DNA of 64,000 nucleotides, taken from Acidipila sp. EB88. Its GTDB lineage: Bacteria > Acidobacteriota > Terriglobia > Terriglobales > Acidobacteriaceae. How positions within the stretch are numbered: the first letter of the stretch is position 1; each line of letters opens with the position of its first letter. Location: assembly GCF_003858395.1 (NCBI RefSeq), contig NZ_QWEV01000005.1:4092001-4156000 (forward strand), given 5' to 3'. The notes under the pieces are model-generated. The model saw nothing but the letters and a program-made list of their open reading frames with translations. It did no database searches and was not told the DNA's origin. Shown piece by piece: positions 42,233 through 44,432 of the stretch. The position numbers and the translations under genes were made by a program.

Positions 42233-44432
<2,200 letters not shown>

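Follow-up and report, generated by a model that had tools for sequence, protein, structure and literature searches.

A CxxxY-type CcmE and a cysteine-rich CcmH encoded at two distant loci of Acidipila sp. EB88

System I*, the variant Ccm system with a CxxxY-type CcmE, reportedly goes back to the work of Allen (2006) and Goddard (2010). CxxxY CcmE has been known since 2006, and CcmH was absent in the original description; a 2011 review stated that about one third of the bacteria with System I* contain CcmH and that its absence is not characteristic of the system, which has been proven experimentally, with cysteine-dependent heme loading, in Desulfovibrio (PMC3601427). Residue C120 of the CxxxY CcmE from Methanosarcina acetivorans is required for heme loading (PMC9084895), and for the corresponding D. 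vulgaris protein a non-covalent binding of heme by the cysteine was reported (PMC3884852). A cysteine-rich CcmH without LRCXXC has been described in three archaea (Geoglobus, Ferroglobus) whose genomes encode CxxxY CcmE (PMC4600277). Here we compare with these systems the ccm genes found in a 64,000-nucleotide stretch of Acidipila sp. EB88 DNA, referred to as the window, and elsewhere in the same genome.

CcmE and the ccm operon of the window

The codons TGT GCT TCA AAG TAC, in frame in the ccmE ORF, encode Cys-Ala-Ser-Lys-Tyr, and alignment to E. coli CcmE from the solved CcmABCDE complex (8ce8_E) confirmed the original prediction that this is the heme-attachment site: AKCASKY was aligned with AKHDENY, with Cys125 at the position of His130 and Tyr129 at that of Tyr134. 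The protein has CASKY in place of the HxxxY of classical System I, that is, a cysteine at the His130 position with a tyrosine four residues on, as in System I*. Its Pfam CcmE domain scored 84.9 bits (cut-off 24.6) and was the only PF03100 match in the genome; this is the sole CcmE, and there was no second one of the HxxxY type. The Cys, Ser, Lys and Tyr of the motif were invariant in 18 CxxxY CcmE from many phyla (a set picked for the motif), and CASKY was present in every sampled relative from the family of the window. Therefore, we conclude that CASKY in the window is no chance event. An AlphaFold model made from the 18 CxxxY sequences (mean pLDDT 84.9) predicts the N-terminal membrane helix (model residues 7-32) and the OB fold expected of CcmE, the helix being followed by beta strands that form an OB-like beta barrel, and its best Foldseek matches include the CcmE entries 8ce8, 1lm0 and 1sr3. 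D. vulgaris CcmE (2kct) was also found, by a sequence search with the CxxxY CcmE profile.

Table 1 Features of the ccm operon in the window
Feature	Position	Strand	Basis
ccmE, CxxxY type, 159 aa	43953..44432	+	start ATG 43953, stop 44432; Pfam PF03100
heme-attachment motif CASKY (Cys125...Tyr129)	44325..44339	+	alignment to E. coli AKHDENY; kept in relatives
ccmA, ATPase of heme-release complex	45783..46457	+	best NCBIfam TIGR01189 ccmA, 130.9 bits (cut-off 131.6); 34.8% identity to E. coli CcmA
YbaK/EbsC-type aminoacyl-tRNA deacylase	46454..46957	+	TIGR00011 147.8 bits (cut-off 153.25)
ccmB	46954..47634	+	PF03379 123 bits
ccmC	48002..48745	+	PF01578 and TIGR01191
ccmD-like, 41 aa	48742..48867	+	location behind ccmC; L241 and L245 have short homologues in the corresponding position

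The genes ccmA, ccmB, ccmC and a ccmD-like gene, which had been predicted near the CxxxY ccmE, are all present in the window (Table 1). The order ccmE, ccmA, ccmB, ccmC is common to 11 relatives, mostly adjoining thiC; between ccmE and ccmA of the window lie a minus-strand gene (44710-45714), which by eye looks metallo-beta-lactamase-like, and a short ORF. CcmC has the WWD motif (WGIWWTWDERLTS) and keeps both histidines equivalent to H60 and H184 of the E. coli protein. Searches of the ccmD-like ORF against Pfam and NCBIfam gave no match. The deacylase gene lies inside the operon, overlapping both ccmA and ccmB, and probably stands outside Ccm function; it occupies the same place in five of the 11 relatives (L238, L239, L241, L242, L245) and was not found in the other six (L240, L243, L244, L246, L247, L248).

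Components encoded elsewhere in the genome

A second locus (contig C5, ~417.3-420.0 kb), about 3.7 Mb away from the window ccm genes, contains ccmF, ccmH and a short ccmI-like ORF. The CcmF ORF (724 residues) matched both Pfam CcmF domains and keeps all the histidines equivalent to E. coli H173, H261, H303 and H491. Directly behind it lies the CcmH ORF (175 residues; PF03918 48.5 bits, cut-off 25), followed by a neighbouring 91-residue ORF whose CcmI match of 22.4 bits is below the 29.3 cut-off. No strict CcmG was found in the genome above the family cut-off, at an estimated genome completeness of 88% at which genes could be missed; several TlpA/ResA-like thioredoxins and one DsbD are present. 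The original prediction that ccmF, ccmG and ccmH are lacking is thus correct for the window and wrong for the genome with respect to ccmF and ccmH, and of the "reduced or dispersed" system that it proposed, only the dispersal stood. The genome search that it suggested for ccmF, ccmG, ccmH and ccmI recovered the first and the third, with ccmI as a weak match and no strict ccmG. Its equation of CxxxY with a missing CcmH, which follows the 2006 description, fails on the CcmH found here, and the rule had been withdrawn by 2011 (PMC3601427).

Since ResB had no match above the cut-off in the genome (one sub-threshold match, 15.8 bits), System II (ResB/CcsBA) was rejected. A third Cytochrom_C_asm (PF01578) match was rejected as CcsA, as it is HemX-like and adjoins hem genes (L010, G000:C5:3576000-3586000, beside hemA-, hemC- and hemD-like genes). 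Nine matches to the cytochrome c domain PF13442 indicate that the system has substrates.

The Acidipila CcmH (G000:C5:~419.5-420.0 kb, L009:5991-6518) carries CTCGCAQILGECNHLGC in place of RCxxCQ. By its domain, it is a CcmH, one without the LRCxxC motif (MMCTCGCAQILGECNHLGC), and this cysteine-rich form is common to all sampled members of the family. A profile of CxCGC-type CcmH found the solved CcmH structures 2kw0 (E. coli, E 2.3e-10) and 2hl7 (P. aeruginosa, E 6.1e-10), with cysteines 1 and 3 lying about over the classical pair in the profile alignment; a sequence search with the Acidipila CcmH alone found no solved structure. The same 2hl7 was the best, weak Foldseek match (E 0.035) of a fold model of the CcmH of a relative (L194; pTM 0.44). 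The cysteines C42, C44, C46, C53 and C58 (L194 numbering) were invariant in 11 CxCGC CcmH from several phyla, the first three by selection, as the set was limited to CxCGC proteins, and the last two unselected. Because cysteines 1 and 3 align with the classical pair, the cysteine-rich CcmH most likely still performs the thiol chemistry of its classical counterpart. No paper on CcmH together with CXCGC was found in the open-licence literature searched, nor any description of the CcmH signature CxCGC...C...C in bacteria.

A second CcmH-like family, with an [AS]PCC[WSY] motif and neither the classical nor the CxCGC motif, occurs in several phyla (L071, L129, L138, L146, L257, L261, L265, L266, L267, L275); L071, L129, L138 and L146 were kept separate because both CcmH motifs are missing. 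Furthermore, CcmF and CcmH are apparently fused in some Acidobacteriota families (f16, f25, f47, f59), in frames of 825-975 aa (L105, L107, L200 and others).

CcmE and CcmH types in Acidobacteriota and other phyla

CcmE was found in 242 of the 396 genomes of the phylum, and a CcmH-domain match in 192 of the 396. Each sampled genome of the window's family, mostly 99-100% complete, has a single copy of CcmE together with a CcmH match. The CcmE and CcmH sequences were read in genomes sampled so as to spread over the families. All 19 genomes with HxxxY CcmE (six families) have the classical RCxxCQ CcmH, and 45 of the 48 with CxxxY CcmE (21 families) have a cysteine-rich CcmH with 4-6 cysteines, typically CxCGC...C...C; the remaining three (G289, G059, G104) have only the PCC-motif CcmH-like protein. 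No crossed pairs were found among the sampled Acidobacteriota genomes, which represent more than 25 families. Three genomes were read later: G005 combines CASKY with the cysteine-rich CQCGCQMGLADCNHVGC, G017 combines CPSKY with the cysteine-rich CPVCPNTPLDVCETLAC, and G008 has CPSKY, with a single CcmH match read, of the PCC type. Counted per locus, so that some genomes were counted twice, the number of cysteines within 26 residues of the first motif cysteine was two in 36 of 36 classical CcmH loci; for the 54 non-classical loci it was five (45 loci), six (two), four (three) or two (four loci, PCC type). The comparison of CcmE across Acidobacteriota that the original prediction had recommended showed CASKY in all sampled members of the window's family. 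As judged from these sequences, most sampled families of the phylum appear to run the CxxxY variant, with a CcmH of a different cysteine set, and the type of CcmH tracks that of CcmE.

A profile search of genome contigs with the CxxxY CcmE alignment gave 80 loci from many phyla, and every CcmH that was readable within 10 kb of them has extra cysteines and no RCxxCQ. Examples of the cysteine-rich form come from Ktedonobacter (L195), Zixibacteria (L183), Gemmatimonadota (L210), Poribacteria (L212) and Actinomycetes (L223), and looser forms from Desulfobulbaceae (L197) and Desulfosporosinus (L226). Among 50 non-acidobacterial genomes with CxxxY CcmE, a PF03918 match was present in 26, several of these being of the PCC type, and absent in 24. 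An exception is the Chloroflexota genome G401, with two CxxxY CcmE and a two-cysteine CcmH (QCPICAG, LQCPICAGQSVDES). The two proteins are strongly linked in Acidobacteriota, but in other phyla the link is not absolute. Another Chloroflexota genome (G404; L303, L304) has four CcmE copies, two of them in tandem and one with CPHAY for CPSKY.

Proposed pathway and its place among described systems

Given ccmF and ccmH at the second locus and the conserved key histidines and WWD motifs of CcmF and CcmC, the CcmE of the window very probably serves as heme chaperone in a System I* (CxxxY) pathway of cytochrome c maturation that is dispersed but nearly complete. CcmC would present heme with its WWD motif, and CcmE would capture it on Cys125, probably through a thioether bond with a vinyl group of the heme, the iron being ligated by Tyr129. 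CcmABCD would then release holo-CcmE, which would pass the heme to CcmF, together with CcmH in a putative redox role, for attachment to the CXXCH of apocytochromes. Since the CxxxY CcmE of D. vulgaris was reported to bind heme non-covalently (PMC3884852), the heme bond at the cysteine may differ from a covalent thioether.

Taken alone, the window has just ccmE and ccmABCD and could be read as a reduced System I* of the kind found in Desulfovibrio and archaea, which lacks CcmH, and the 24 of 50 CxxxY genomes of other phyla without a PF03918 match show the same lack; however, this reading is refuted by the ccmFH locus, where an above-cut-off CcmH lies directly behind ccmF, and all the family's sampled genomes have a CcmH match, which makes it very improbable. 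It is hardly credible that the CcmE of the window is an accessory copy beside a standard HxxxY system, as no point in favour of this was found and both this genome and each sampled family member have a single CcmE. The original prediction had named an HxxxY CcmE with a full ccmFGH set elsewhere as the sign of an accessory copy; ccmF and ccmH are indeed present, but not a second CcmE.

With the dispersed System I* pathway as the preferred reading, the association of CcmE and CcmH types was examined on trees of CcmF (94 rows) and CcmE (156 rows, motif columns removed). The cysteine and histidine types are one change apart on each, with moderate support for CcmF (86) and poor resolution for CcmE (67). 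Repeated co-evolution of CcmE and CcmH is not supported, as a single deep split on both trees gives no evidence of it, and the link can be described as one ancient divergence of the entire Ccm system. This agrees with System I and System I* being co-inherited sets and does not imply that a joint change was required. As an addition to this explanation, CxxxY CcmE and cysteine-rich CcmH might be functionally matched partners with interdependent cysteine chemistry. This idea draws on the uncrossed pairs in more than 25 families (19/19 and 45/48) and on the two classes of CcmH cysteine counts, 2 versus 4-6, but the single change on the CcmF and CcmE trees means that there is no independent replication, the pair in Chloroflexota G401 speaks against it, and many CxxxY genomes lack any CcmH; we regard it as possible and rather unlikely. 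More doubtful still is the proposal that System I* has its own five-cysteine CcmH class, chemically matched to a cysteine-heme CcmE, whose extra cysteines would help to break the CcmE-heme thioether or would buffer apocytochrome thiols without a dedicated CcmG.

These findings correct the rule that CxxxY means no CcmH. How heme leaves a cysteine-bound CcmE, thioethers being very stable, is a question raised earlier (PMC3601427), and the Acidobacteriota are bacteria in which the role of CcmH alongside a cysteine-type CcmE can be studied.

Compared with E. coli System I (ccmABCDEFGH), Acidipila has the same components minus a strict CcmG, and its CcmC and CcmF retain the key histidines and WWD motifs, but its CcmE has cysteine for histidine, its genes do not form one operon, and its CcmH has CxCGCx6Cx4C for RCPKCQ and no TPR (CcmI) part. 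System I* as described differs in that here CcmH, CcmD-like and short CcmI-like proteins are present, the motif is CASKY instead of the majority CPSKY, and the genes are split between two distant loci. Like Geoglobus and Ferroglobus (PMC4600277), Acidipila combines CxxxY CcmE with a CcmH that has a cysteine-rich motif in place of LRCXXC; these archaea have LX[S,N]C[E,D,H]C, next to a duplicate CcmF, whereas here the CxCGC...C...C protein is the only CcmH and lies beside the only CcmF. The Acidipila system represents a variant already described, found here in a new setting.
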